From a virus, in the IMG/VR virus record IMGVR_UViG_3300010885_029758, positions 1 to 24,525 of that record: 24,525 nucleotides of DNA. One strand, written 5' to 3'. Under the pieces are notes generated by a model. That model ran no database searches, had not been told where the DNA came from, and saw nothing but the letters and a program-made list of their open reading frames with translations. The translations under genes were made by a program, and so were the position numbers. Shown here in pieces: positions 12,647-24,095 of the stretch (position 1 is the stretch's first letter; each line of letters opens with the position of its first letter).

Positions 12647-12793
12647 CTAATCTAAACATTTTAACTCACCACTAAAATTATAAGAAACACTACTAGAAAC
12701 AAAATTATTACTACTTAAATAATCATTAGTGTTTCCGTTAAATTCCCAATATCCAATTGGGTTTCCTAATAAAATATTTAAACTATATGACAT
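12647..12793 (-). CDS. 48-residue LamG-start fragment or small gene
   Basis: This short ORF begins MSYSLNILLGNPIGYWEFNG and stops after KCLD. Its first 20 residues match the opening of the neighbouring large adhesin (SIINPTAYWSLGS), the usual start of a LamG domain (NP-x-x-YW). The ATG overlaps the stop of the fibre gene in TAATG, so it is set up to be translated. The domain ends where a LamG would need a hundred more residues, so it is either the remnant of a duplicated and truncated adhesin or a small fibre tip or cap. Too short for standard gene-length cutoffs. Confidence 0.6.
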   Translation of the reverse strand: MSYSLNILLGNPIGYWEFNGNTNDYLSSNNFVSSSVSYNFSGELKCLD

Positions 12794-14053: not shown

Positions 14054-15982
14054 TTATGCGCCAATATCTACCAATTCACATTCTCCACTTACACAAGCAA
14101 GTGATTGAGAACCAGTAGTATTATCTTCGGTTTCGTATAAAGATAGATTTTCCCAAGCAATATGCTTTGGCATCTTTTTTACGAATGCTTCATATTCTTC
14201 TTTTGTAGCATCCTGATAAGGAGCTTGTACATAGGTGTGTTCTGAGTAGGGAAGAAATGAAACACCAGATAATTCGTCAAAATGTTTAAATACCCAAGCA
14301 CCAACTTCCATCCATTCGTCTTCACGAATAGAAACGGTAATTGATGGTTTGTGCTCGCACCAATGTCTTTGATAAGTTAACCAAACATCTAAATGTTCAA
14401 TTGCCGTAAGATCATTACGTTTAATTGCATTTTTTGGTGCTTTCATTGGAAATGAAAAAACTGTAGTGTCATTTGGTTTCATAAAATCATCTTCGGCGGG
14501 AATACCAGAATCTTTAAGGAACTGAGTTAGTGGATCTTTCTTATCCCCACGCACAGTACGAATATAGTAATCACTATGCCAAGGATGCATACCAGATGAT
14601 ACACCAACTAACTGAGATACTGTTCCAGATGGTTTAACACAAGTAATTGCTGCGGATGGATTAATGCCAATTTTACCTGCTTCTTCAATATTTGTTGTTA
14701 CTGCAAGCTCTCTAAGGAAATCAAGTGTCTTAGATAGTTTATCTAGACCTTGCTGACCTGACATATACTTATGACCAAACTGACCTGTCAAAGAAACGCC
14801 AAGTAGACGCTCTTCTTCTGTATTATCTTTCCAGATTTTACGAAGATACTTGAAATCTGTAAGTGTTGACTGCCAAGTTCCAAGAATTGTAGCAAGTTCT
14901 ACCTTACGAGCAATATCTTCAACTGAGTCATCTTCACGAAGTACAACCTCTGAAAGATTACAGAACTGATATGGTCGTAGAATAATTTCAGAGCATGGAT
15001 TAGTTCCATAATGAACTTCTGGGTCTCTACGACCAAACTTAGAAGCTTGTGACTGAGCAGCCTTTACATTGTAAATACCACGCTCACCAGACTTAGAGTC
15101 ATACACTGATTTCCATTCTGCAATAAAGTCATTCATTTCTGGCTTACCAGCAAATGCAACTGAATTGTTTGATAATGCTCTTTGTGGATGATTTTCCCAC
15201 CATGCACCTGCTTTTGCAGTTGCCATATCATGATCGTTAAGATCTGAAAGAGAAATCATGGCACTACGGCGTACACCACCAACTACAACTACCTCACCAA
15301 TCTTACACATAATATCATGTGCTTCAATTGGCTTTAGTTTGCGACCAGCAGCATTACGAAATGTTTTGATTGTGAAATCAAAAAGATTAACTAGCGGTTG
15401 TGGACCCGATGCACGACCACCAAATGTTTTTAGTCTTGCTCCAGCAGGTCTAACCTTAGTTACATCAATTGCAGGAATCTGACCTTGATACAACAAAGCA
15501 ATAAGTTCACGAAGAGCTTTTGACCAGCCCGCCTTTGAATCCTCTACAACAATAATTGTTTCGGTCTTTTCAAATTTTTCTGCAATTACTGGAAGTTTAT
15601 TCACATATACACTCTCTACTGAGAAACCTACCCCTGTTCCACACATAAGAATATACATTGCCTCATCGAATGAACGAAGTGAGTCGACAGGAAGAAATGA
15701 ACAGTTATATCCTGCTACATGATCTCGTTCTAATGCAGGACCTGCGGTCATAACAGAACGCATAGATGGCATAACATTTCTATCGAATACAAATTGTTTT
15801 AATTCTGTAACAAGCTTCTCATCTGGAGCATAGCTATGTTTTTCTTTGAGATGCTTCTGAATATAATCGAAGTATCTATCTACGGTCTCTGACCAAGTTT
15901 CTCGTCTATTTTCTTCACCAAGCCAACGAGCATAACGGCTTAGAGCAATAAAGTTTTCATAAGGATTTTCAATCCCACTCAT
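14054..15982 (-). CDS. nrdJ: Class II adenosylcobalamin-dependent ribonucleoside-triphosphate reductase
   Basis: This enzyme makes deoxynucleotides from ribonucleoside triphosphates with vitamin B12 coenzyme and without oxygen. The 642-residue chain is shorter than the Lactobacillus enzyme (about 739). It keeps the key residues: Cys94 (GYNCSFLPVD); the NPCSE active loop with Asn328, radical Cys330 and Glu332; partner Cys341 exactly 11 residues on (YQFCNLSE); the CVKPSGTVSQLVGVSSGMHP loop; and the C-terminal redox pair Cys630/Cys635 (CVSGEC). It is a single-subunit enzyme, consistent with there being no second subunit. ATG 15982 has GGTG upstream and a TGATACACT box. It supplies nucleotides for phage DNA and implies the host makes or imports cobalamin. 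Confidence 0.93.
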   Translation of the reverse strand: MSGIENPYENFIALSRYARWLGEENRRETWSETVDRYFDYIQKHLKEKHSYAPDEKLVTELKQFVFDRNVMPSMRSVMTAGPALERDHVAGYNCSFLPVDSLRSFDEAMYILMCGTGVGFSVESVYVNKLPVIAEKFEKTETIIVVEDSKAGWSKALRELIALLYQGQIPAIDVTKVRPAGARLKTFGGRASGPQPLVNLFDFTIKTFRNAAGRKLKPIEAHDIMCKIGEVVVVGGVRRSAMISLSDLNDHDMATAKAGAWWENHPQRALSNNSVAFAGKPEMNDFIAEWKSVYDSKSGERGIYNVKAAQSQASKFGRRDPEVHYGTNPCSEIILRPYQFCNLSEVVLREDDSVEDIARKVELATILGTWQSTLTDFKYLRKIWKDNTEEERLLGVSLTGQFGHKYMSGQQGLDKLSKTLDFLRELAVTTNIEEAGKIGINPSAAITCVKPSGTVSQLVGVSSGMHPWHSDYYIRTVRGDKKDPLTQFLKDSGIPAEDDFMKPNDTTVFSFPMKAPKNAIKRNDLTAIEHLDVWLTYQRHWCEHKPSITVSIREDEWMEVGAWVFKHFDELSGVSFLPYSEHTYVQAPYQDATKEEYEAFVKKMPKHIAWENLSLYETEDNTTGSQSLACVSGECELVDIGA

Positions 15983-17169: not shown

Positions 17170-17406
17170 ATGGAATTTAAAGTATTTGTGAGATATTATC
17201 GACTTTCTACTTTTGATAATAAATTGCCTGAAATTTTGTGTGCAAATGACGCAGAGCATATGTCACTTATTCCAGCAATTGACGAGCATGACAATATTTG
17301 GTTAGAGTGCTATGCTTGCGGATACACACTAAGACCAGGCTTAGATATGTATAATAAACTCAGTAAGGCGGTACAGGAAATAGATGGCGAATCTGCAGGA
17401 TATTAG
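17170..17406 (+). CDS. Early small protein with possible zinc-binding cysteines
   Basis: This is a 78-residue protein, MEFKVFVRYYRLSTFDNKLP onward. A single Cys near residue 28 and the close pair C-Y-A-C (LECYACGYTL) at about 54-57, followed by a helix, resemble small actinophage proteins that sense or bind zinc. Not recognised further. It is the first gene after the strong divergent promoter, so one of the earliest expressed. The ATG has only AT bases upstream; no Shine-Dalgarno is seen. The 3' end overlaps the next gene by 23 bases. Confidence 0.65.
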   Translation: MEFKVFVRYYRLSTFDNKLPEILCANDAEHMSLIPAIDEHDNIWLECYACGYTLRPGLDMYNKLSKAVQEIDGESAGY

Positions 17407-17611
17407 TCCAGAAGAACCTAAAATTAATTCAGAGGCTCTCTACGAGCTTCTAGGAGGCATGTATATCCAATTGCTTCGTGTATACGACCTATTGGCTCTT
17501 ATAGCATCAGGTGATAGTAATAATACTAAAGTAGAGCAATTGATTTCTTTGCATGAGTCAGGAAAGGTCCTGTCTCCAGATCCCGCCCTAGTGTTGGATG
17601 ATAATGAATAA
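17384..17611 (+). CDS. Small early protein, function unknown
   Basis: This is a 75-residue protein, MANLQDISPEEPKINSEALY onward, mostly helical (YELLGGMYIQLLRVYDLLAL) with an acidic end. No motif is recognised. An AGGAAATAG site lies just before the ATG, and it overlaps genes on both sides, which suggests translational coupling in the early operon. Confidence 0.65.
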   Translation: MANLQDISPEEPKINSEALYELLGGMYIQLLRVYDLLALIASGDSNNTKVEQLISLHESGKVLSPDPALVLDDNE

Positions 17612-17669
17612 AATAATTTTTGCACTATTGATACTATGGTGGTTTACTTATGCCTATTCAGGAAAGTAA
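17604..17669 (+). CDS. 21-residue hydrophobic peptide
   Basis: The ORF starts MNKIIFALLILWWFTYAYS and ends with Gly-Lys. It is one membrane-spanning segment with a positive N end. It overlaps the genes on both sides, and its ribosome binding site is weak. It may be a real membrane microprotein, matching several others in this window, or only a translational bridge. Confidence 0.4.
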   Translation: MNKIIFALLILWWFTYAYSGK

Positions 17670-17874
17670 TCTAAGTATATTTGTGTGTCCGTATTGTTTT
17701 GACTATAAAATGCTATATCAGAAGCCTATGAGTGTAAATGCGACAAACTCAATGCATGAACATATGATTTCTTGCTCCCCCCGCCGAAAAAGTATGATAC
17801 AAGATGCAATTAATAAAACAATTGACGAAAATTATGATCTTCTGCTACAATTAGGTGATTCTGATGATGAGTAA
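17650..17874 (+). CDS. Small zinc-finger-like protein
   Basis: This is a 74-residue protein, MPIQESNLSIFVCPYCFDYK onward. C13-P-Y-C16 and later H36-EHMISC make a plausible C2HC zinc site. It ends acidic (LLLQLGDSDDE). GGTGG lies seven bases before the ATG. A nucleic-acid or protein-binding role is possible; no function is shown. It sits in the early operon of small cysteine-containing proteins. Confidence 0.65.
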   Translation: MPIQESNLSIFVCPYCFDYKMLYQKPMSVNATNSMHEHMISCSPRRKSMIQDAINKTIDENYDLLLQLGDSDDE

Positions 17875-17974
17875 TATGACTCTAGAGGAATTTGCAGAGA
17901 TTTTACACAAAGTTATCTCAAGAGATGACTACGATTTAACAGAAAGAGAACAAAATAATGTCTTGGACAACTAA
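17867..17974 (+). CDS. 35-residue acidic helical peptide
   Basis: The ORF encodes MSNMTLEEFAEILHKVISRD followed by DYDLTEREQNNVLDN. It is an amphipathic helix and acidic. It overlaps the previous gene by 8 bases and the next by 17. No motif is recognised. The packed overlaps on both sides speak for a real gene, but the ribosome binding site (AGGTGAT, 12 bases off) is poor. Confidence 0.5.
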   Translation: MSNMTLEEFAEILHKVISRDDYDLTEREQNNVLDN

Positions 17975-18137
17975 AATGGGTGTTTTGACCTGCCATAAGT
18001 GCAAAAAGTTCAAAATGTCAGTAAGAATTCCATTCAACAAAATTACAATGGATGAATTTGACAAGCATACAACAGCTTGTGTAGGAAATCCTTACAAAGA
18101 TTCTAAACCAACCAATGTTACACTTGGATATAACTAA
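17958..18137 (+). CDS. 59-residue zinc-finger-like protein
   Basis: The ORF starts MSWTTKMGVLTCHKCKKFKM. C12-H-K-C15, a Lys-rich strand, then H37-TTAC41 form a C2HC zinc-finger pattern like that of the 74-residue neighbour at 17650, so the two may be distant relatives. Basic overall, which suits nucleic-acid binding, but nothing proves it. It is the last of the overlapping early genes; a small AAATAC/GTATTT hairpin follows at 18139-18154. Confidence 0.65.
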   Translation: MSWTTKMGVLTCHKCKKFKMSVRIPFNKITMDEFDKHTTACVGNPYKDSKPTNVTLGYN

Positions 18138-18172
18138 TAAATACAGTAGTATTTATATAAATTAGGAGAATT

Positions 18173-18334
18173 ATGAAAATTTTATCAGTTTTTTACTTAT
18201 TTTTACTTTCACTTGTTGCCAAGAGTGCTATATCTGATGTCAGAAGCAATAGGATAAGTGTTTCTGATCTTTTATTTCCCGCATTTTTTATTTTTATATG
18301 TCTTATTGTCATATTTTCGGTGCTTACTGCATGA
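18173..18334 (+). CDS. 53-residue membrane protein
   Basis: The ORF starts MKILSVFYLFLLSLVAKSAI and has two hydrophobic stretches (residues 3-20 and 34-52) joined by a charged loop (DVRSNRISVSD). A good AGGAGA site is five bases or so before the ATG. Its TGA overlaps the next ATG in ATGA, so the two membrane proteins are probably made together. It could alter the host envelope, for example in exclusion or lysis timing; no holin signature is clear. Confidence 0.65.
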   Translation: MKILSVFYLFLLSLVAKSAISDVRSNRISVSDLLFPAFFIFICLIVIFSVLTA

Positions 18335-18489
18335 ATTTTGTAAATTTTCTGACTTTAGGTCTGATATTGTATCCAATATTTTATTTTATGTTTCCAAATC
18401 AGAGATATAAGCTGCATCCCTTGTCATATGTTAGCTGGATATTTATCTCTTATGTATTTTATTTGTTTTTTGGATCCCGCCATTCTTAA
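18331..18489 (+). CDS. 52-residue membrane protein, coupled partner
   Basis: Start ATG at 18331 overlaps the stop of the previous gene in ATGA. An earlier in-frame ATG at 18298 exists, but has no binding site and would overlap more. The protein MNFVNFLTLGLILYPIFYFM onward has two hydrophobic segments with a basic loop (NQRYKLHP) and a Gly-Ser-Arg-His-Ser end. Gene pair of two small two-pass membrane proteins, function unknown. Confidence 0.6.
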   Translation: MNFVNFLTLGLILYPIFYFMFPNQRYKLHPLSYVSWIFISYVFYLFFGSRHS

Positions 18490-18889: not shown

Positions 18890-18911
18890 AAAGTAGCACA
18901 TAACGCAGACA
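18890..18911 (-). promoter_or_regulatory. PafBC-type (RecA-NDp) promoter 1, minus strand
   Basis: TGTCTGCG, eight bases, TACTTT. The R of the consensus TGTCR is T here, so it is the least perfect of the sixteen. TTGACA lies upstream. Drives the two minus-strand microgenes. Confidence 0.65.
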
Positions 18912-18945
18912 TTTTTTGTCAATTCCCGCCTAATTTTTATAAAAC

Positions 18946-18957
18946 ATTGTATACAAT
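18946..18957. repeat. Palindrome ATTGTATACAAT, copy 1
   Basis: A perfect 12-bp palindrome followed by CTTTTTTTATTT. The same sequence with the same T-rich tail is found at 19063-19074, so the pair flanks the hairpin repeat R1. It looks like an operator (GntR-type sites have this form). Confidence 0.6.
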
Positions 18958-18973
18958 CTTTTTTTATTTTATC

Positions 18974-19048
18974 GGCGTGTCGATTTGACAGATCAGGAGC
19001 TGCGGGGCTACCCCCGCCTTTGCTATATTTGTCAAGCTACGACACACC
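18974..19048 (+). repeat. Nested hairpin repeat R1
   Basis: Outer arms GGCGTGTCG and CGACACACC, middle arms TTGACA and TGTCAA, and an inner GCGGGG-CTAC-CCCCGC hairpin. TCTCTGG follows. It has no third C-rich arm before the inner hairpin, unlike the other copies. Part of the 274-base gap 18884-19157, which otherwise holds only promoters and two palindromes. Confidence 0.8.
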
Positions 19049-19062
19049 CTATTTTTCTCTGG

Positions 19063-19074
19063 ATTGTATACAAT
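19063..19074. repeat. Palindrome ATTGTATACAAT, copy 2
   Basis: Identical to copy 1 and followed by the same T-rich tail; overlaps the TCTCTGG end of R1. Confidence 0.6.
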
Positions 19075-19108
19075 CTTTTTTATTTATTTTAGTGTTTCGT
19101 GTTGTTTT

Positions 19109-19130
19109 TGTCGGTGGCGTGTGTTAGTTT
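19109..19130 (+). promoter_or_regulatory. PafBC-type promoter 2 (perfect consensus)
   Basis: TTGTCGGTG, eight bases (GCGTGTGT), TAGTTT: every defined position of tTGTCRgtg-N8-TAgnnT is met. 28 bases before the start at 19158. Confidence 0.85.
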
Positions 19131-19157
19131 TATCTTGTAAGCAAAAAAGGAGAAAAA

Positions 19158-19259
19158 ATGCTAACAGTTCTAAAGGTTCTAATGGTTCTAAGCGTTGCGC
19201 TATTTGTAACTCTTGTAGTGCTTGAACTAAAGCCAAACAAATACACCGACAAATTCTAA
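19158..19259 (+). CDS. 33-residue membrane microprotein (MLT family, copy 1)
   Basis: The ORF starts MLTVLKVLMVLSVALFVTLV, one membrane segment, followed by a short polar end (ELKPNKYTDKF). An AAGGAG site is seven or so bases before the ATG. It is a paralogue of the protein at 19482 (MLTFLNVTMVLAVVVF). Function unknown; damage-type promoter. Confidence 0.65.
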   Translation: MLTVLKVLMVLSVALFVTLVVLELKPNKYTDKF

Positions 19260-19261
19260 CC

Positions 19262-19276
19262 CACGCCTACGGCGTG
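19262..19276 (+). repeat. Small hairpin, degenerate R outer arm
   Basis: CACGCC-TAC-GGCGTG followed by TCG: the outer arm GGCGTGTCG of the R repeat with its own pairing partner and no inner hairpin. Marks the end of the first MLT gene. Confidence 0.6.
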
Positions 19277-19289
19277 TCGTTACTAAAAA

Positions 19290-19311
19290 TGTCAGTAGGG
19301 TGTGCTACATT
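19290..19311 (+). promoter_or_regulatory. PafBC-type promoter 3, upstream of the structured RNA
   Basis: TGTCAGTA, GGGTGTGC, TACATT. Transcription would begin at about 19318, just before the RNA at 19338-19441. Confidence 0.8.
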
Positions 19312-19337
19312 ATTACTATAACTAAATAGAGGTAAAA

Positions 19338-19441
19338 AGAATCAAGTCTCGGACATAGGGTAGATGACTTCACTAGGTCAGGACATAGAGCCACCAAAAA
19401 ATTGGATTCGGCTGGATACATAGGCACTAAGACTTGATTCT
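19338..19441 (+). ncRNA. Candidate structured RNA, three-stem, closed by a 12-bp helix
   Basis: Bases 19338-19349 (AGAATCAAGTCT) pair perfectly with 19430-19441 (AGACTTGATTCT), with three more pairs beyond a mismatch. Inside are two hairpins: TGAC/GTCA (19365-19380), and AGCC/GGCT with nested CCAA/TTGG (19389-19413). The three single-stranded joints each carry the same element: GGACATAG at 19351 and 19381, and GGATACATAG at 19414. A T-rich tail follows. It starts about 20 bases after a PafBC-type promoter and lies before a membrane microgene. A 19-codon ORF (19364-19423) fits inside but has no good binding site. It could be a small regulatory RNA or a leader with switch function. I do not recognise a known family. 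Confidence 0.6.
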
Positions 19442-19481
19442 CTTTATCTTTATTTAGTACCCAACAAACAAAGGAAAATAA

Positions 19482-19592
19482 ATGCTAACTTTTCTAAATG
19501 TAACAATGGTTCTAGCGGTTGTGGTGTTTGCTTCTTTGCCGTTCGTATTTATCTGGGCAGCCGTTGCAGATGATAAGGACAGCAAAAAATAA
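19482..19592 (+). CDS. 36-residue membrane microprotein (MLT family, copy 2)
   Basis: The ORF starts MLTFLNVTMVLAVVVFASLP, one membrane segment, then FVFIWAAVADDKDSKK. Sequence and start resemble the 33-residue protein at 19158. AAAGGA is seven bases or so upstream. It lies about 40 bases after the structured RNA, which would be in its leader if they are co-transcribed. Confidence 0.65.
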   Translation: MLTFLNVTMVLAVVVFASLPFVFIWAAVADDKDSKK

Positions 19593-19594
19593 TC

Positions 19595-19690
19595 GGCGTG
19601 TCGGCTTGACAAGCTGTCCCCTGCGGGGCTACCCCCGCAGTCGGGCGTGTCGTGTTACGGGGATCTAAAAAATCTCTGGCGTGTCGTTAC
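19595..19690 (+). repeat. Nested hairpin repeat R2
   Basis: GGCGTGTCG, CTTGACA, then CTGCGGGG-CTAC-CCCCGCAG (8 bp) with an alternative CCCC/GGGG pairing upstream, and the GGGATCTAAAAAATCTCTGG type of 3' half instead of TGTCAAG. Sits between the MLT gene and promoter 4. Confidence 0.8.
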
Positions 19691-19696
19691 CAAAAA

Positions 19697-19718
19697 TGTC
19701 GGTGGGGTGTGCTATGGT
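19697..19718 (+). promoter_or_regulatory. PafBC-type promoter 4
   Basis: TGTCGGTG, GGGTGTGC, TATGGT, followed by a leader with AACGAAAGGG. Confidence 0.85.
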
Positions 19719-19742
19719 GTAACTATAACGAAAGGGCAAAAA

Positions 19743-19952
19743 ATGACAATTTATGTAGATTTTGAAGTAATGGAAAATCGTGAGTTTGTAAAGGCTAACC
19801 CAAACAACTCTCGCCTAGTAAATACAGTTTTAGATTCTTGCAAGGGTGACGCTAATTGCACCAACCTAAACGAAATCCGTTCAAAAGATTTTGGGTTTAT
19901 AACTTGGTACTGCCCCGAACACTACCACCTAGCAACTTGGGCTAACGACTAA
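19743..19952 (+). CDS. 69-residue protein of a duplicated cysteine-containing family
   Basis: The ORF starts MTIYVDFEVMENREFVKANP. It shares its layout with the protein at 21384 (MTVFVSGEVEENRILASEQP), with a VxxxxLxxC start of the second half, an Asn-rich turn (CTNLNEIRS / CDNRLEVFQ), and an FxxWxC end (FGFITWYC / ADFISWLC). Cysteines in the second half may bind metal. Function unknown. An upstream GTG in the same frame lies in the promoter and is not used; GAAAGGG spaces to this ATG. Confidence 0.7.
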   Translation: MTIYVDFEVMENREFVKANPNNSRLVNTVLDSCKGDANCTNLNEIRSKDFGFITWYCPEHYHLATWAND

Positions 19953-19955
19953 AAA

Positions 19956-19977
19956 TGTCAGACCCTTGTGCTAGATT
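19956..19977 (+). promoter_or_regulatory. PafBC-type promoter 5
   Basis: TGTCAGAC, CCTTGTGC, TAGATT. It begins three bases after the stop codon of the previous gene. Confidence 0.8.
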
Positions 19978-20001
19978 GTAATCATAATCAAAGGAGAAAA
20001 A

Positions 20002-20109
20002 ATGTCGGACTTAGAAATTGTTGAGAACATCACCAAAGCAAAATGTGCGGTATGTGGTGACAAACTTACCGCTTGGGAAAATTCTATTTGTATTCTATGT
20101 GAGGACTAG
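20002..20109 (+). CDS. 35-residue zinc-ribbon microprotein
   Basis: The ORF reads MSDLEIVENITKAKCAVCGD then KLTAWENSICILCED. CxxC pairs at C15/C18 and C30/C33 form a zinc ribbon. It is a paralogue of the minus-strand gene at 18629, with the same spacing between the pairs. AAAGGAG seven bases upstream of the ATG. Short single-domain zinc proteins of this kind may contact host machinery; not shown here. Confidence 0.75.
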   Translation: MSDLEIVENITKAKCAVCGDKLTAWENSICILCED

Positions 20110-20112
20110 ACT

Positions 20113-20205
20113 ATGTATCGTGAACCTATCCTGAACCCCGCCGAAACTTGGCTATTTATTATTGCTTTAGGTACTTTTATCTACGCCATTTTTTCTAAAA
20201 AATAA
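20113..20205 (+). CDS. 30-residue membrane microprotein
   Basis: The ORF starts MYREPILNPAETWLFIIALG, one membrane segment, ending TFIYAIFSKK. It comes four bases after the zinc-ribbon gene, so the two share a transcript, mirroring the minus-strand pair of a membrane peptide and a zinc ribbon. Its stop overlaps the start of repeat R3's upstream arm region. No strong ribosome binding site; coupling is likely. Confidence 0.55.
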   Translation: MYREPILNPAETWLFIIALGTFIYAIFSKK

Positions 20206-20206
20206 T

Positions 20207-20325
20207 CGGCGTGTCGGCTTGACAACCCGCCCAAGGGCGGGGCTACCCCCGCCTGTGGATAACTTGTTGATTACGGGAGCTGCAAAAATCTCTGGATTGT
20301 ATACAAAGTTTTTTGCGACACGCCG
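20207..20325 (+). repeat. Nested hairpin repeat R3 with DnaA box
   Basis: Outer arms CGGCGTGTCG (20207-20216) and CGACACGCCG (20316-20325) pair over 119 bases, 10 bp perfect. Inside, the centre GGCGGGG can pair either with CCCGCC upstream or with CCCCGCC downstream (loop CTAC). It also carries TGTGGATAA (20254-20262), a perfect DnaA box on the minus strand, and ATTGTATACAAA (20296). Confidence 0.8.
20296..20307. repeat. Palindrome ATTGTATACAA(A), copy 3
   Basis: One base differs from copies 1 and 2. It follows TCTCTGG of R3 as copy 2 follows that of R1. Confidence 0.5.
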
Positions 20326-20341
20326 AATAAAATACCAAAAA

Positions 20342-20363
20342 TGTCGGTGGGGTGTGCTAAGGT
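20342..20363 (+). promoter_or_regulatory. PafBC-type promoter 6
   Basis: TGTCGGTG, GGGTGTGC, TAAGGT; 30 bases before the gene at 20393. Confidence 0.85.
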
Positions 20364-20392
20364 AGTATTACTACACAGAAAAGGGGTTCCAA

Positions 20393-20593
20393 ATGGAATT
20401 TGACAAATTGAAAAACTTGCTTATCGGCGGTGCTATTGTTAGCCAAAAGTCGGGCGTACTTATCCAAGACATTGACACCGTAGAGGATAAATTTTTTGGT
20501 ATTGTTGTTGGCGGTTATGTCGTAACCGTTGATTGGAATAATCAGGTAAAGCGTACACCACGCTACACAACAATAGACCTATCCGACTACTAA
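20393..20593 (+). CDS. 66-residue beta-rich small protein
   Basis: The ORF starts MEFDKLKNLLIGGAIVSQKS. It has alternating short strands (GVLIQDI, FFGIVVGGYVVTVDW) and could be a small barrel, for example SH3-like. No motif decides the function. AAAGGGG is six or so bases before the ATG. Next promoter starts right after its TAA. Confidence 0.65.
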   Translation: MEFDKLKNLLIGGAIVSQKSGVLIQDIDTVEDKFFGIVVGGYVVTVDWNNQVKRTPRYTTIDLSDY

Positions 20594-20596
20594 AAA

Positions 20597-20618
20597 TGTC
20601 GTACCCCTATGCTATAAT
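20597..20618 (+). promoter_or_regulatory. PafBC-type promoter 7
   Basis: TGTCGTAC, CCCTATGC, TATAAT. The -10 is the full sigma-70 consensus with extended TGC. Confidence 0.8.
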
Positions 20619-20647
20619 AATTTTATTCAATTGAAACGGAGAAGCAA

Positions 20648-20821
20648 ATGGCAACATTCTTAGAAACAACAGAAACCCCACTCTATGGACAAATTTGGGA
20701 AAGCCCAATTGACGGACAATTTTTTTATTTGCGTGAGCGTAGTTTCCCTCGTGGTAATCGTATGGTTTGCCTAATGGAAAATTTACAGGGATACCACGAG
20801 TATTTTGTCTTCCCCTACTAA
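20648..20821 (+). CDS. 57-residue small protein, function unknown
   Basis: The ORF starts MATFLETTETPLYGQIWESP and ends YHEYFVFPY, aromatic-rich and probably beta. No motif is recognised. CGGAGAA lies five to eight bases before the ATG. Bracketed tightly by two class-B promoters. Confidence 0.65.
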   Translation: MATFLETTETPLYGQIWESPIDGQFFYLRERSFPRGNRMVCLMENLQGYHEYFVFPY

Positions 20822-20825
20822 AAAA

Positions 20826-20847
20826 TGTCAGACCCCTATGCTAGAAT
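20826..20847 (+). promoter_or_regulatory. PafBC-type promoter 8
   Basis: TGTCAGAC, CCCTATGC, TAGAAT; the preceding gene's TAA ends five bases before it. Confidence 0.8.
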
Positions 20848-20873
20848 AGTCACATAACGAAACGGAGAAAAAA

Positions 20874-20996
20874 ATGACTTGCAATTACTGCGACAAAATC
20901 GCAACGGTAGAATTGACTTCAACAATTGGTTTTTGTGACGAGTGCAACCCAATTTGTTCAGGTTGTGAAAATCTAGATTGCGATTGCACCTGCTAA
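20874..20996 (+). CDS. 40-residue cysteine-rich microprotein
   Basis: The ORF starts MTCNYCDKIATVELTSTIGF and continues with CDEC, CSGC, CDC and a final TC: nine cysteines in forty residues. C3/C6 with C21/C24 would be one zinc ribbon; the tail C28, C31, C36, C38, C40 could bind a second metal, or act in redox chemistry. Metallothionein-like or zinc-hook roles are possible. CGGAGAA precedes the ATG. Confidence 0.75.
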   Translation: MTCNYCDKIATVELTSTIGFCDECNPICSGCENLDCDCTC

Positions 20997-20999
20997 AAA

Positions 21000-21021
21000 T
21001 GTCAGACCCTTATGCTAGATT
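21000..21021 (+). promoter_or_regulatory. PafBC-type promoter 9
   Basis: TGTCAGAC, CCTTATGC, TAGATT; begins three bases after the previous stop. Confidence 0.8.
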
Positions 21022-21048
21022 AGTTATACAACGAAACGGAGAAAAAAA

Positions 21049-21246
21049 ATGAATGCAATTTTATTCGCAACAGCACTAACCGCACTAACAATTGGTTTTG
21101 GAATCTTTACCGCAATTGAATTAGATTCTTATGAAAAGAAAAATCACAAGCCACACCGCCTTGATGTGCCTCTAATGTTGCTTGCTTGTTTTTCACCATT
21201 CTTTACTTTTATTGGTACAATTTATTTATGGGCTAGCGTGTCATAA
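21049..21246 (+). CDS. 65-residue two-pass membrane protein
   Basis: The ORF starts MNAILFATALTALTIGFGIF. It has two hydrophobic segments (residues 3-22 and 42-62) around a charged, His-containing loop (YEKKNHKPHRLD). CGGAG is eight or so bases before the ATG. Its last codons (AGC GTG TCA TAA) are supplied by the outer arm of repeat R4. No lysis or transporter signature is seen. Confidence 0.7.
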   Translation: MNAILFATALTALTIGFGIFTAIELDSYEKKNHKPHRLDVPLMLLACFSPFFTFIGTIYLWASVS

Positions 21247-21330
21247 TTTGACAAACCCCGACAGGGCGGGGCACCCCCGCCCCTCCCCAAAGCTTAATTA
21301 CGGAGATCTAAAAAATCTCTGCGTGTCGCT
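21236..21330 (+). repeat. Nested hairpin repeat R4
   Basis: GCGTGTC, TTGACA, CCCCG-ACAG-GGCGGGG and CCCCCGCC, then GGAGATCTAAAAAATCTCT (GAGAT/ATCTC hairpin) and TCTCTGC in place of TCTCTGG. Overlaps the end of the membrane protein gene. Confidence 0.8.
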
Positions 21331-21339
21331 ACCCAAAAA

Positions 21340-21361
21340 TGTCGGTAGGCTGTGCTAGTAT
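21340..21361 (+). promoter_or_regulatory. PafBC-type promoter 10
   Basis: TGTCGGTA, GGCTGTGC, TAGTAT, 22 bases before the gene at 21384. Confidence 0.8.
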
Positions 21362-21383
21362 TATTTTTAGAAAGGTGGTCAAA

Positions 21384-21620
21384 ATGACTGTATTTGTTTC
21401 TGGTGAAGTTGAAGAAAATCGTATTCTTGCGAGCGAGCAACCTGAAATTTTCAAGTTGGCTGTCACTACACTTATTTGTTGTGACAATAACATCTGCGAT
21501 AATCGCTTGGAAGTTTTTCAAAAAGATGCCGATTTTATTTCTTGGTTGTGCGAGTTTTGCGATGTTGATGATGCCTCTGATGATTTCCCTCTATGGTTAG
21601 AGTATGACGAAGGCGAGTAA
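21384..21620 (+). CDS. 78-residue protein of the duplicated cysteine-containing family
   Basis: The ORF starts MTVFVSGEVEENRILASEQP, with CC at about 35-36, C at 41, then WLCEFC at about 55-58 and an acidic end. Related in layout to the protein at 19743 but longer by nine residues. The start is chosen by AAAGGTGG eight bases upstream; an earlier in-frame ATG at 21339 lies inside the promoter. Function unknown. Ends directly before repeat R5, which takes its first arm from the gene's last codons. Confidence 0.7.
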   Translation: MTVFVSGEVEENRILASEQPEIFKLAVTTLICCDNNICDNRLEVFQKDADFISWLCEFCDVDDASDDFPLWLEYDEGE

Positions 21621-21698
21621 ACTTGACAAAGCCCGCTATGGCGGGGCACCCCCGCCTTGATCAAATGTCAAGTTACGACACACCCCAATTTTCTCTGG
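21621..21698 (+). repeat. Nested hairpin repeat R5
   Basis: CTTGACA / TGTCAAG middle arms around GCCCGC-TATG-GCGGGGC and CCCCGCC, followed by GTTACGACACACC and TCTCTGG. The left outer arm is replaced by the end of the upstream gene (GGCGAGTAA). Confidence 0.8.
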
Positions 21699-21705
21699 AT
21701 AAAAA

Positions 21706-21727
21706 TGTCAGACCCTTGTGCTAAGTT
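21706..21727 (+). promoter_or_regulatory. PafBC-type promoter 11
   Basis: TGTCAGAC, CCTTGTGC, TAAGTT; the only class-B sequence directly abutting TCTCTGG. Confidence 0.8.
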
Positions 21728-21755
21728 TGTATTGTTCCCAACCGAAAGGCTCAAA

Positions 21756-22043
21756 ATGACAATTTTTGACACATCTGCCCCAATTGCTTTCAAGACCTCA
21801 ACCTCTGACTGGGTTGCTGACTTGCAACAGTCAATCGTTGATGAGTTTATTTCTCGTAATGGTGCTATGTATCATACGCCTAGCGTTGTGTCGGTTGCCA
21901 ATGGTGTTCAGTACGCAATTTGTGCTTCTTGCGAAAAAAATGTTGAAGCGTGGCTTGATGACGAAACTATGCTTTTTGGCAATTTTGGCGTTCGTGTAGA
22001 GTTTGTCAATGGTGCTATGCTAAATAAAGTTTGTGAAATGTAG
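21756..22043 (+). CDS. 95-residue small protein with CxxC
   Basis: The ORF starts MTIFDTSAPIAFKTSTSDWV. It contains ICASCEKNVEAW (CxxC) near residues 58-62. The same MTI/MTV start and leader GAAAGGnnnnAAATGAC as the genes at 19743 and 21384, suggesting reuse of a start module. An in-frame ATG at 21657 lies in the repeat upstream and is not taken. The stop TAG shares its last base with R6. Function unknown. Confidence 0.65.
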   Translation: MTIFDTSAPIAFKTSTSDWVADLQQSIVDEFISRNGAMYHTPSVVSVANGVQYAICASCEKNVEAWLDDETMLFGNFGVRVEFVNGAMLNKVCEM

Positions 22044-22128
22044 GCGTGTCGGCTTGACAAGCCCCGCCAAGGCGGGGCACCCCCGCTCTTATCATTTGTC
22101 AAGTTACGACACACCTAAAAATTCTCTG
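22043..22128 (+). repeat. Nested hairpin repeat R6 (most complete copy)
   Basis: GGCGTGTCG ... CGACACACC outer, CTTGACA ... TGTCAAG middle, and GCCCCGC-CAAG-GCGGGGC inner, where GCGGGG can alternatively pair with CCCCGC through loop CAC. TCTCTGG follows. Best template for the family. Confidence 0.85.
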
Positions 22129-22144
22129 GCTTATTATAGAAAAA

Positions 22145-22166
22145 TGTCGGTGGCATGTGCTAGGAT
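22145..22166 (+). promoter_or_regulatory. PafBC-type promoter 12
   Basis: TGTCGGTG, GCATGTGC, TAGGAT, 29 bases before the gene at 22195. Confidence 0.85.
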
Positions 22167-22194
22167 GTAATCACATCAACCGTTAGGAAATTAA

Positions 22195-22728
22195 ATGACC
22201 TACTTCAACCGCTATCTCGCAATCGCACAACAGGCAACACTTGCCCAAATTGAATTGGCGACACAATGGTACGCAGACGCAGAATTAGTGGCACACGATG
22301 TTGTTCGTATTCTTGCGACTCGTGGCATTAACGCAACACTTGAAAATGGTGCTAGTGTTGTTTCATCGTTCTCACCTCGTCAGCGTTGGAATCGCAATGT
22401 TGTTCAGGCGTTAGAGTTTGCACATACAGGAAAAGCAACAGGACTAAAAAATAATTTAGTTATGGCACAAAATAGTTTAGTGCTAGGGTTCAATGCACTA
22501 AAAGGATTAAAAACAAATGCGTTCGCTCGTGCAATCGCTGGCGATGAAAATGCCGTTACCATAGATGTGTGGATGTGCTACGCTGGCGGATTAGATACTA
22601 ATGCACCAAATAAAACACAATACCGAGAAATGGCACAAGCGGTTAAAGATGTTGCGAGAGAATTAGGCTTGACACCTCGCACAACTCAGGCACTAATCTG
22701 GATTATCTTTAGGGGTTCGCATGAATAG
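22195..22728 (+). CDS. 177-residue actinophage-type protein, possibly DUF7178-like
   Basis: The ORF starts MTYFNRYLAIAQQATLAQIE. It is the largest plus-strand gene. Motifs: VSSFSPRQRWNRNVVQALEF near residue 57, GLKNNLVMAQ, ARAIAGDENAVTIDVWM near 111-127, then RTTQALIWIIF close to the end. I recall this pattern (SP-x3-W-x2-N, GD..VTID-W) from conserved small actinophage proteins whose role is not assigned. The VTIDVW segment looks a little like the VDTHVxR of HhH-GPD DNA glycosylases, but the key catalytic Lys/Asp and hairpin are not clear. If the likeness held, a DNA-repair link would suit its damage-type promoter. AGGAAAT lies six bases upstream. Confidence 0.6.
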   Translation: MTYFNRYLAIAQQATLAQIELATQWYADAELVAHDVVRILATRGINATLENGASVVSSFSPRQRWNRNVVQALEFAHTGKATGLKNNLVMAQNSLVLGFNALKGLKTNAFARAIAGDENAVTIDVWMCYAGGLDTNAPNKTQYREMAQAVKDVARELGLTPRTTQALIWIIFRGSHE

Positions 22729-22783
22729 AATTGTTTACATACTATTAACTTTTATCATAACTTTATTTAGTAAAGATTCTTAA
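22721..22783 (+). CDS. 20-residue membrane peptide
   Basis: The ORF reads MNRIVYILLTFIITLFSKDS, one membrane segment with positive residues at both ends. AGGGG is five bases before the ATG, and it overlaps the previous gene by 8 bases. Likely coupled. One of several single-pass microproteins here. Confidence 0.5.
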   Translation: MNRIVYILLTFIITLFSKDS

Positions 22784-22798
22784 ACCACCGCCCCCCCA

Positions 22799-22874
22799 AC
22801 TTGACAAAGCTGGGGGAGCGGGGCACCCCCGCCCTTCTTACTATCCTATTTACGGAGATCTAATAAATCTCTGG
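22799..22874 (+). repeat. Nested hairpin repeat R7
   Basis: CTTGACA, GCGGGG-CAC-CCCCGC, and the GGAGATCTAATAAATCTCTGG half. The C-rich arm has moved upstream of CTTGACA (CCCCC, about 22791-22797) and pairs with GGGGG at 22812-22816, keeping a competing stem by a different route. Confidence 0.75.
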
Positions 22875-22878
22875 AAAA

Positions 22879-22900
22879 TGTCGGTGGGGTGTGGTATAGT
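22879..22900 (+). promoter_or_regulatory. PafBC-type promoter 13
   Basis: TGTCGGTG, GGGTGTGG, TATAGT; 22 bases before the gene at 22922. Confidence 0.8.
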
Positions 22901-22921
22901 ATTATTAGAAAGTAGGTAGTT

Positions 22922-23128
22922 ATGGGATTTATTAAAGCGTTTATTATGGACAACGATGGTGCGGGTTGGGTTGGGCTTGACGAACTAACCGAAGAAGAAA
23001 AAGCACAGTTAGAAATTGCAATTACAAAACAAGAGTCAGGACTTGCTTGTGTAATCTGCTATCTGCCAATTCTTGCAGGTACAGGCAACACTTGTGAAAA
23101 GCACATTGGCGTTATACCTAATTGGTAA
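22922..23128 (+). CDS. 68-residue protein with CxxC and C..H
   Basis: The ORF starts MGFIKAFIMDNDGAGWVGLD. A C43-V-I-C46 pair and C58-EKH61 may form a zinc site. GLDELTEEEKAQLE forms a helix in the first half. Function unknown. AGTAGGTAGT precedes the ATG closely, a moderate binding site. Its stop is followed at once by the next promoter. Confidence 0.65.
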   Translation: MGFIKAFIMDNDGAGWVGLDELTEEEKAQLEIAITKQESGLACVICYLPILAGTGNTCEKHIGVIPNW

Positions 23129-23132
23129 AAAA

Positions 23133-23154
23133 TGTCAGACCCCTATGCTAAGAT
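23133..23154 (+). promoter_or_regulatory. PafBC-type promoter 14
   Basis: TGTCAGAC, CCCTATGC, TAAGAT. Its bases can be misread as the start of a protein (MSDPYAKIS). Confidence 0.8.
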
Positions 23155-23182
23155 AAGTTTATCAAACGAAATGGAGAGCCAA

Positions 23183-23422
23183 ATGGCAAATAATAAATCA
23201 CTCGCAGACCTTACCCAAGAATTAGTAGATGTTATGTATGAATTGGACAAGGCAAAATACTCACGACCTGAACGCATACACGGTTGGATAAAAGTGGGTT
23301 GGCTTTTGTCAATCGGTTTAGATAACGGTTTAGGCAAGCGACAACTTGCAACCACATTGCAACGAGAAATTGACGGTGCAAAGCAAGAACTAGAAGCCAA
23401 ACTACTACAAACAACAAACTAA
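23183..23422 (+). CDS. 79-residue helical protein
   Basis: The ORF starts MANNKSLADLTQELVDVMYE. It is helical, with HGWIKVGWLLSIGLDNGL in the middle and an acidic-basic coiled-coil tail (REIDGAKQELEAKLLQ). GGAGAG lies six bases or so before this ATG; upstream ATGs in the frame belong to the promoter. Not recognised. It shares a transcript with the following small gene. Confidence 0.65.
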   Translation: MANNKSLADLTQELVDVMYELDKAKYSRPERIHGWIKVGWLLSIGLDNGLGKRQLATTLQREIDGAKQELEAKLLQTTN

Positions 23423-23431
23423 GGAGAGCAA

Positions 23432-23539
23432 ATGAAACTGCACGAATGGAAAGAAATGGTAAAGGCAGAGCGTGAAGCAGAAGCCAAAGCCAATGCCCAA
23501 AAGACCGCACAAATTGCAAAGGTAACTAAGGAGTCATAA
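23432..23539 (+). CDS. 35-residue charged helical peptide
   Basis: The ORF starts MKLHEWKEMVKAEREAEAKA, one long Ala/Lys/Glu helix ending KVTKES. AAGGAGAG lies seven bases before the ATG, so translation is well supported despite the size. It lies nine bases after the previous gene. Function unknown. Confidence 0.65.
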   Translation: MKLHEWKEMVKAEREAEAKANAQKTAQIAKVTKES

Positions 23540-23615
23540 CTTGACACCCGCCCAAGGGCGGGGCACCCCCGCTTTTCTTATTTGTCAAGTTACGACACGC
23601 CCAATAAATCTCTGG
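23540..23615 (+). repeat. Nested hairpin repeat R8
   Basis: CTTGACA / TGTCAAG around CCCGCCC-AA-GGGCGGG with the alternative GCGGGG/CCCCGC stem; GTTACGACACGCC and TCTCTGG follow. The reverse strand of its left half reads GGCGGGTGTCAAG. Confidence 0.8.
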
Positions 23616-23630
23616 ATTACTCTTGAAAAA

Positions 23631-23652
23631 TGTCGTACCCTTATGCTATAGT
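23631..23652 (+). promoter_or_regulatory. PafBC-type promoter 15
   Basis: TGTCGTAC, CCTTATGC, TATAGT; leader with AACGAAAGGGA before the gene at 23682. Confidence 0.8.
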
Positions 23653-23681
23653 AAAATTATCAAATCAACGAAAGGGAACAA

Positions 23682-23987
23682 ATGTTCACTCTAAACAACA
23701 TCACCAAGACCGCCGACCACTCTGCTTATTCAGTTTCTTCACGACCTTGCCCTACCTGTGAAGATGTAATCACTATTCAGATTGCCCCAGAAAAATTATT
23801 CCTTTACAATCAGGGTGGCTATGTTCAAGATGTTCTTAGCAATTTTGATGTTGATACTCGTGAGCGTTTTATTACAGGCACTTGCGCTGATTGTTGGAAT
23901 GCTATGTTCGGCTCTGATGATGAAGGTGACCTAGATTATCTAATTGACGATTATGCAGAGGCATCTTTATTTGGTTGGGAGAACTAA
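23682..23987 (+). CDS. 101-residue zinc-ribbon-like protein
   Basis: The ORF starts MFTLNNITKTADHSAYSVSS. C23-P-T-C26 and C68-A-D-C71 (GTCADCWNAMFG) give two knuckles about 42 residues apart, a zinc-ribbon pattern with an inserted strand-rich part (ITIQIAPEKLFLYNQGGYVQ). The end is acidic. The family occurs in actinophages as small proteins of unknown role; this is from memory. The stop lies in the loop of an 8-bp hairpin (GGTTGGGA / TCCCAACC) that spans the end of the gene. Confidence 0.7.
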   Translation: MFTLNNITKTADHSAYSVSSRPCPTCEDVITIQIAPEKLFLYNQGGYVQDVLSNFDVDTRERFITGTCADCWNAMFGSDDEGDLDYLIDDYAEASLFGWEN

Positions 23988-24058
23988 TCCCAACCCCCTG
24001 CGGGGGATCCCCCGCCAAAGCTGCGTGTCAAGTTACGACACGCCAAAATTATCTCTGG
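23973..24058 (+). repeat. Nested hairpin repeat R9 with added hairpin at the stop codon
   Basis: GGTTGGGA (23973-23980) pairs with TCCCAACC (23988-23995) around the stop; then CCCCC-TGC-GGGGG competes with GCGGGGG-AT-CCCCCGC; GTGTCAAG, TTACGACACGCC and TCTCTGG follow. The left arms of the standard repeat are missing. Confidence 0.75.
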
Positions 24059-24073
24059 GTTATTGTTGAAAAA

Positions 24074-24095
24074 TGTCAGACCTATGTGTTATAGT
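24074..24095 (+). promoter_or_regulatory. PafBC-type promoter 16 (leaderless)
   Basis: TGTCAGAC, CTATGTGT, TATAGT; the ATG comes six bases after the -10 box. Confidence 0.8.

Follow-up and report, generated by a model that had tools for sequence, protein, structure and literature searches.

Promoters of the RecA-NDp type, known from mycobacteria and other actinobacteria, have the published consensus tTGTCRgtg-N8-TAgnnT. The binding motif of PafBC is described as closely similar to RecA-NDp (PMC8223512), and PafBC as an actinobacterial heterodimer of WYL-domain proteins that is activated by single-stranded DNA (ssDNA) and redirects the holoenzyme of SigA towards promoters that carry a -26 motif (PMC11804915). 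The window analysed here, the whole 24.5-kb virus record IMGVR_UViG_3300010885_029758 (24,525 nucleotides), contains an island of very small plus-strand genes with 15 sites of the form TGTCR-N11-TAnnnT. These sites are probably phage promoters of the PafBC (RecA-NDp, -26 box) type, with the PafBC and SigA of the host as their readers, an interpretation held with moderate confidence and well supported by comparison with actinobacterial promoters.

An array of sites with one spacing

All 15 plus-strand matches to TGTCR-N11-TAnnnT lie at positions 19109-24095, and the window as a whole holds 16; 100 dinucleotide shuffles of the window gave a mean of 2.02 matches (standard deviation 1.47), and none of the 100 reached 16. 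The sixteenth match, at 12771 on the minus strand, was absent from the 16 sites listed in the preliminary description and is probably a chance occurrence. That list gave the start of every plus-strand site exactly; its remaining entry, a divergent promoter-like site on the minus strand (18911-18890, TGTCTGCGTTATGTGCTACTTT), reads TGTCT, which breaks the R, with the -10 box kept and a leaderless ATG at the same offset as elsewhere, 28 bases after the first T. On the plus strand of the island a spacer of 11 yields 15 matches and every other spacer from 4 to 21 yields at most seven, while on the minus strand a spacer of 11 yields none. The array is beyond chance and its spacing is fixed; an origin by chance or as a repeat artefact is ruled out by the spacing, the strand and the coupling to start codons.

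The full motif is longer than the pattern used for counting and comprises an A-tract, TGTCRG, a W-S-S triplet and then TRTGCTAnnnT, an extended -10 element. TGTCR and the spacing are kept in 15 of 15 sites, as is the extended -10 (TGnTA), and the upstream A-tract is present in most. The box form TGTCRGWSS, which is the one searched for and found in small actinobacterial genomes, occurs in 11 of the 15 and the full TGTCRGTG in five, and the sites fall into two sub-classes, TGTCRGTRG (seven sites) and TGTCRKACC (eight sites). In 13 of the 15, no more than four of six bases match TTGACA at a spacing of 15-19, in keeping with the PafBC-type architecture proposed earlier.

Downstream of the plus-strand sites lie 13 microgenes led by a Shine-Dalgarno (SD) sequence, one leaderless gene and one structured RNA. 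The SD-led start codons follow the first T of the site by 43-51 bases and the leaderless one, at the site 24074, by exactly 28. Sites of the TGTCRGTG class are found at 19109..19130, before the ATG (19158) of an open reading frame (ORF) of 33 amino acids (aa); at 19697..19718 (ATG 19743); at 20342..20363 (ATG 20393, 66 aa); at 22145..22166, before a DUF7178 protein of 177 aa (22195..22728, plus strand); and at 22879..22900 (ATG 22922, 68 aa). The TGTCRGTRG sites at 19290..19311 and 21340..21361 are followed by the structured RNA, with no ORF, and by an ATG at 21384, respectively. A TGTCRGACC site at 19956..19977 precedes a 35-aa protein with paired CxxC motifs (ATG 20002), and the TGTCGTACC variant stands at 20597..20618 (ATG 20648, 57 aa) and 23631..23652 (ATG 23682, 101 aa). 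The TGTCAGACC class is represented at 20826..20847 (ATG 20874, 40 aa), 21000..21021 (ATG 21049, 65 aa, hydrophobic by eye), 21706..21727 (ATG 21756, 95 aa), 23133..23154 (ATG 23183, preceded by GGAG, with another ATG at 23171) and 24074..24095 (leaderless ATG 24102).

The preliminary description had placed these genes in a right arm. A near-identical viral contig (L226; 7 mismatches in 14,240 shared bases) reaches further to the right, where it adds ten matches to TGTCR-N11-TAnnnT, the final one at about the window-equivalent position 34,391, and then continues into minus-strand genes; because of this the island is internal to the phage genome and not a genome arm. One of the ten additional matches (24006 of that contig) falls within an ORF.

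Related sites in viral contigs and actinobacterial genomes

By comparison of contigs, the array is a widespread putative phage promoter, far beyond one phage. The narrow ACC form AATGTCRNACCCYTRTGCTANNNT was found in 95 stretches of viral contigs, against two when 257 Gb of genome sequence from bacteria and archaea was searched, and the AATGTCRGTGGNNNNTGNTANNNT form in at least 120 stretches of viral contigs. The viral loci were fetched by motif, which biases sub-class frequencies and site totals. They form arrays, mostly on one strand, with 28 sites in L009 and 22 in L070, and some arrays run both ways (for example in L012, L032 and L247). Seventy-eight of the loci fetched with the AATGTCRGTGGNNNNTGNTANNNT form hold 382 TGTCRN8TGNTANNNT sites, fetching matches included, against two for the reversed pattern, and 48 of these 78 hold at least four sites each. 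A scan for TGTCRGWSS in 11 of the 12 viral contigs with the most sites detected arrays in all 11, with 7-16 sites and no occurrence of the reversed pattern.

Across 671 sites (the window and viral loci L001-L099), 470 precede an SD-led ORF, 62 a leaderless ORF and 139 neither, and the corresponding figures for 5000 random positions are 821 SD-led and 57 leaderless. Of 688 sites in 101 loci, 81% have an A at the predicted start position, which is also where the leaderless ATG stands in phage and host sites; two of these loci are non-viral, and L100 and L101 are included here but excluded from the count of 671. The driven genes form 201 clusters with a median length of 56 aa (longest member), 111 of them singletons. 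No predominance of damage or repair genes was seen downstream of the phage sites, these clusters being mostly microgenes without known function; Pfam searches with 61 proteins gave one match each to DUF932, GP88, DUF7178, ThyX, DUF7246, WhiB, DUF1281_C and Mrr_N.

Promoters of the same geometry are common in actinobacteria. Of 296 genomes in the class to which Candidatus Ancillula belongs, 255 contain TGTCRGTGG-N7-TAnnnT, with up to 50 copies per genome, and 36 contain its reversed form, with 40 copies in all (hand count); a set of 36 small genomes from this class holds 138 copies of TGTCRGWSS-N7-TAnnnT versus 45 of the reversed form (hand sum). The small-genome sites stand upstream of recA, a LysM gene, a DUF6504 gene, ligA and a DUF222 gene, families for which Pfam confirmed one protein each (two for recA), orthologues being judged by eye. 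The palindrome CGAACN4GTTCG, a LexA-type box, closely follows the -10 at recA of L196, L204, L210 and L214 and at LysM and DUF6504 genes; the bases examined at recA of L182 contain none. At the DUF6504 promoter the triplet after TGTCAG is ACC, TCC or AGC in three genomes with the rest nearly unchanged, and AGG in a fourth, more diverged genome. Orthologous phage genes also exchange the triplet: the DUF7178 cluster has ACC three times, TGG three times and TGA once (a tally that includes both the window and L226). Since the DUF6504 promoters and the orthologous phage genes switch triplets alike, the sub-classes in phages look like alternatives recognised by a single reader.

The host count covers 70 loci: 51 distinct sites have an ORF of 60 aa within the next 260 bases, and 11 have none; an earlier count of 41 sites excluded L176-L181, L183-L189 and L192-L194. 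The triplets of the 51 sites are TGG (17), ACC (9), TGC (8), AGG (7), TCC (5), AGC (3) and ACG (2). In 23 of the 51 the first ORF begins at an offset of 28-30 bases from the first T, which is that of the phage leaderless genes; among random positions followed by an ORF the figure is 131 of 3256. Conserved host stretches such as TGTCAGACCCCATCCCTAATAT (L184-L186, L192, L193), and those of L188 and L189, have no ORF after them and were rejected as promoters. A site of the form TGTCATACCCCTGTGCTATAAT was observed in a Candidatus Ancillula genome (L100:2866), with a leaderless ORF at offset 28 whose product resembles citrate synthase by eye.

Of 32 small actinobacterial genomes, 29 contain an adjacent pair of WYL genes (pafB-pafC), mostly of 300-350 aa. 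In one of them a tatC-like gene (by eye) stands beside the pair, and tatC is known to follow pafB-pafC.

Candidate readers of the box

Among 30 array-bearing contigs, picked mainly for large arrays or length and many of them fragments, none encodes a WYL protein, and sigma-70 region 4 is above the cut-off in one and below it in one more. A phage-encoded WYL regulator and a phage sigma factor as common reader were both rejected on these counts, and with neither a WYL protein nor a common sigma factor in the phage contigs, host PafBC would be the simplest reader. The earlier PafBC proposal is supported in part, by the -26 box, by the predicted start 7 bases after the -10 and by the box variants common to host promoters; the phage -10 boxes, stronger than those of the host, count against it.

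From these observations we infer how the promoters would be read, by what signal and when, and where transcription would begin. SigA and the host RNA polymerase would read the TAnnnT -10 box, and the PafB-PafC heterodimer would recognise, in place of a -35, the TGTCRG box between about -28 and -23, with transcription predicted to start 7 bases after the -10. PafBC would be idle before infection; ssDNA arising from DNA damage, phage end processing, replication or host-DNA breakdown would then activate it, whereupon PafBC-SigA would start all cassettes together, expressing tiny accessory genes and one structured RNA, and the intergenic hairpins would end the cassette transcripts. More tentatively, uncultivated actinophages might use PafBC as an infection sensor, ssDNA turning on 10-28 accessory microgenes (and the RNA here) at once.

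Several observations weigh against PafBC as the reader. The sites at 23631 and 24074 carry TTGAAA (five of six) at -35 distance, 18 bases before the -10. The phage -10 boxes differ from those of the host: an extended -10 is present in 111 of 159 phage sites, a figure that uses only classes not searched for, versus 3 of 51 host sites, and TATAAT, TACAAT and TATACT make up 109 of the 159 phage boxes, so that the phage copies, with their stronger -10, may fire without PafBC. TGTCRGACC with an extended -10 occurs in only 8 of 296 actinobacterial genomes (reversed, none), and ACC in 9 of 51 host sites but in 1 of 41 once loci chosen for ACC are left out, the host loci having been chosen partly for that triplet. 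Neither set of sites is uniformly followed by a gene: 11 of 62 host sites and 139 of 671 viral sites have no ORF by the rule used. The 30 contigs are mostly fragments, which makes the absence of WYL genes weak. TGTCRGWSS is common in the class of the hosts of cultured actinophages, yet it is absent from all 15 such phages scanned (from Streptomyces, Mycobacterium, Gordonia, Microbacterium, Rhodococcus and Arthrobacter); TGTCRN8TGNTANNNT gave 1, 0, 1, 0 and 1 matches in five of these, versus 1, 0, 0, 1 and 2 reversed, and blastn of single sites against cultured phages returned chance-like matches only. Finally, the genomes compared are actinobacterial, and the phage's own host, which was not identified, may differ. 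Because of the stronger phage -10 boxes, the near-absence of the narrow ACC form from genomes and this uncertainty about the host, the island may have basal expression without PafBC that PafBC would boost.

Among the alternatives, a factor encoded by the phage, with a WhiB-like protein as the likeliest candidate, could read the -26 box as co-activator of SigA, which would make the array the phage's own early or middle regulon; MotA and AsiA of T4 are a precedent for such a factor. WhiB genes are present in 15 of the 30 array-bearing contigs, one of them inside the island of the relative just after a site, and the phage motif exceeds the host motif in length, varies less and has an upstream A-tract that host copies lack. 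The other 15 contigs have no WhiB, though most are fragments, sigma-70 region 4 exceeds the cut-off in just one of the 30, and a phage factor would leave unexplained why the box variants, and the switching between them, recur at host DNA-repair promoters; we consider this explanation unlikely. The near-consensus, extended -10 boxes, together with TTGAAA at -35 distance in two sites and TGGAAA in a third, would also suit plain, strong extended -10 promoters of SigA, constitutive or immediate-early and independent of damage, in which TGTCRG is a weak contact or a relic. Such promoters, to which we give quite a low probability, do not account for a box kept at a single spacing across the island, for the 13 of 15 sites without a good -35 or for the many sites in another 11 contigs that lack the TG and retain the box. 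That the sites are other repeated DNA merely resembling promoters, such as repressor stoperators or recombination sites between cassettes, is very improbable: the units are repeated, the cassettes modular and the intergenic spaces rich in hairpins, but the single orientation, the constant distance between box and -10 and start codons that follow by 43-51 bases (28 if leaderless) argue for promoters.

A LexA-regulated phage promoter was rejected for the window, from which CGAACN4GTTCG is absent. Of 177 viral loci, 22 contain this box (L032:5712, L001:3958 and L314:1259 are examples), with 26 copies in all versus 0, 0 and 2 for three control palindromes; it adjoins a TGTC promoter only in L032 and L314. 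As some relatives carry LexA boxes, such phages may draw on both arms of the host's response to damage.

The island and its relation to known systems

The structured RNA under its own TGTC promoter (19290) covers about 140 bases (19321..19458, plus strand). The segment 19318-19485 folds at -45.5 kcal/mol (z -4.9) into a long imperfect stem with repeated GGACATAG-like segments and has no match in Rfam. Its 16-base core recovered 11 stretches, one being the near-identical relative; the other ten, with no upstream TGTC site and no like fold by eye, were rejected as homologues. By this core, the RNA was found only in the window and that relative.

About nine intergenic inverted repeats are probable terminators that lack a T run; each encloses a GC hairpin (GGCGGGGCACCCCCGC), often surrounded by a GTGTCGnnnTTGACA/TGTCAAGTTACGACAC stem. 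Their limits, set partly by eye, are 18973-19049, 19595-19640, 20208-20260, 21237-21290, 21612-21690, 22043-22117 (plus strand), 22795-22838, 23533-23603 and 23991-24045. The TGG sub-class follows a hairpin in 6 of 7 sites versus 3 of 8 for ACC (by eye), a difference that is not significant (Fisher p 0.12). A palindrome, ATTGTATACAAT, lies between the divergent promoters at 18946..18957, with a second copy at 19063 and a third, partial one at 20296. Also read as ATTGTATACAA(T), it has its first two copies between the divergent first promoters and a fourth at 14310 of L226. Those at 18946 and 19063 are a possible operator, suggesting an additional repressor.

In the left part of the window the minus strand encodes structural proteins (tail tube, head completion, major head protein, protease and portal), the portal being 55% identical to that of Streptomyces phage Wakanda (Stanwilliamsviridae); this part also encodes a class II ribonucleotide reductase and a glycosyltransferase. 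Plus-strand microgenes start from 18884 on; the small plus-strand ORFs ahead of the island (17170-18489) have no TGTCR-N11-TAnnnT site. Relatives of the DUF7178 protein are found in mycobacteriophages and gordoniaphages. Within its island, directly after one promoter, L226 has a WhiB-like gene (14519-14761), and it has a second WhiB at 29137-29310. A DUF932 gene of the island (L227:270-1262) is closest to gene 2 or 3 of Streptomyces phages such as Angela and StarPlatinum; these matches lie near the left genome end, in two places per record, and Angela and StarPlatinum have no TGTC box.

Phages that use LexA are already known. If the PafBC interpretation is right, a large group of environmental actinophages would have moved accessory genes under the main RecA-independent damage activator of the host, offering a way to ask when infection is felt as DNA damage and a handle on the role of dozens of microgenes and on the variability of the PafBC box. 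The motif itself offers a way to detect such islands in metagenomic sequence and to trace their hosts. A search of the open-access literature, preprints being outside it, found, among the matches listed, no report of phages with a PafBC-type regulon, and one for the letters TGTCAGACC gave nothing on the subject among the matches listed.

In the middle promoters of T4 the box of an activator, MotA, replaces the -35 next to an extended -10, and MotA is made by the phage. The phage sites resemble these promoters in both elements; they differ in that none of WYL, WhiB and sigma-70 region 4 is common to the 30 phage contigs. The SAS/ESAS repeats of Cluster K mycobacteriophages are likewise described as short, non-palindromic and mostly one-way repeats before many non-structural genes, but typically lie 3-7 bases before the start codon and are thus start-associated rather than -10/-26 promoters; their exact sequence is given as absent from the host genomes named there (PMC3203893). 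LexA-wired phages such as GIL01 are described as similarly tying phage expression to a host damage regulator (PMC6182141, PMC4551915), although LexA represses and is RecA-dependent, whereas the regulator proposed here is a RecA/LexA-independent activator with many sites. The sites also resemble in form the PafBC-dependent (RecA-NDp) promoters of mycobacteria and other actinobacteria, which have the same distance from TGTCR to TAnnnT, mostly no good -35, the same predicted start and, at recA and other actinobacterial repair genes, the same box variants as the phage sites; what sets the phage sites apart is that they form arrays of up to 28, mostly carry an extended -10 and an A-tract, and precede tiny phage genes instead of repair genes.

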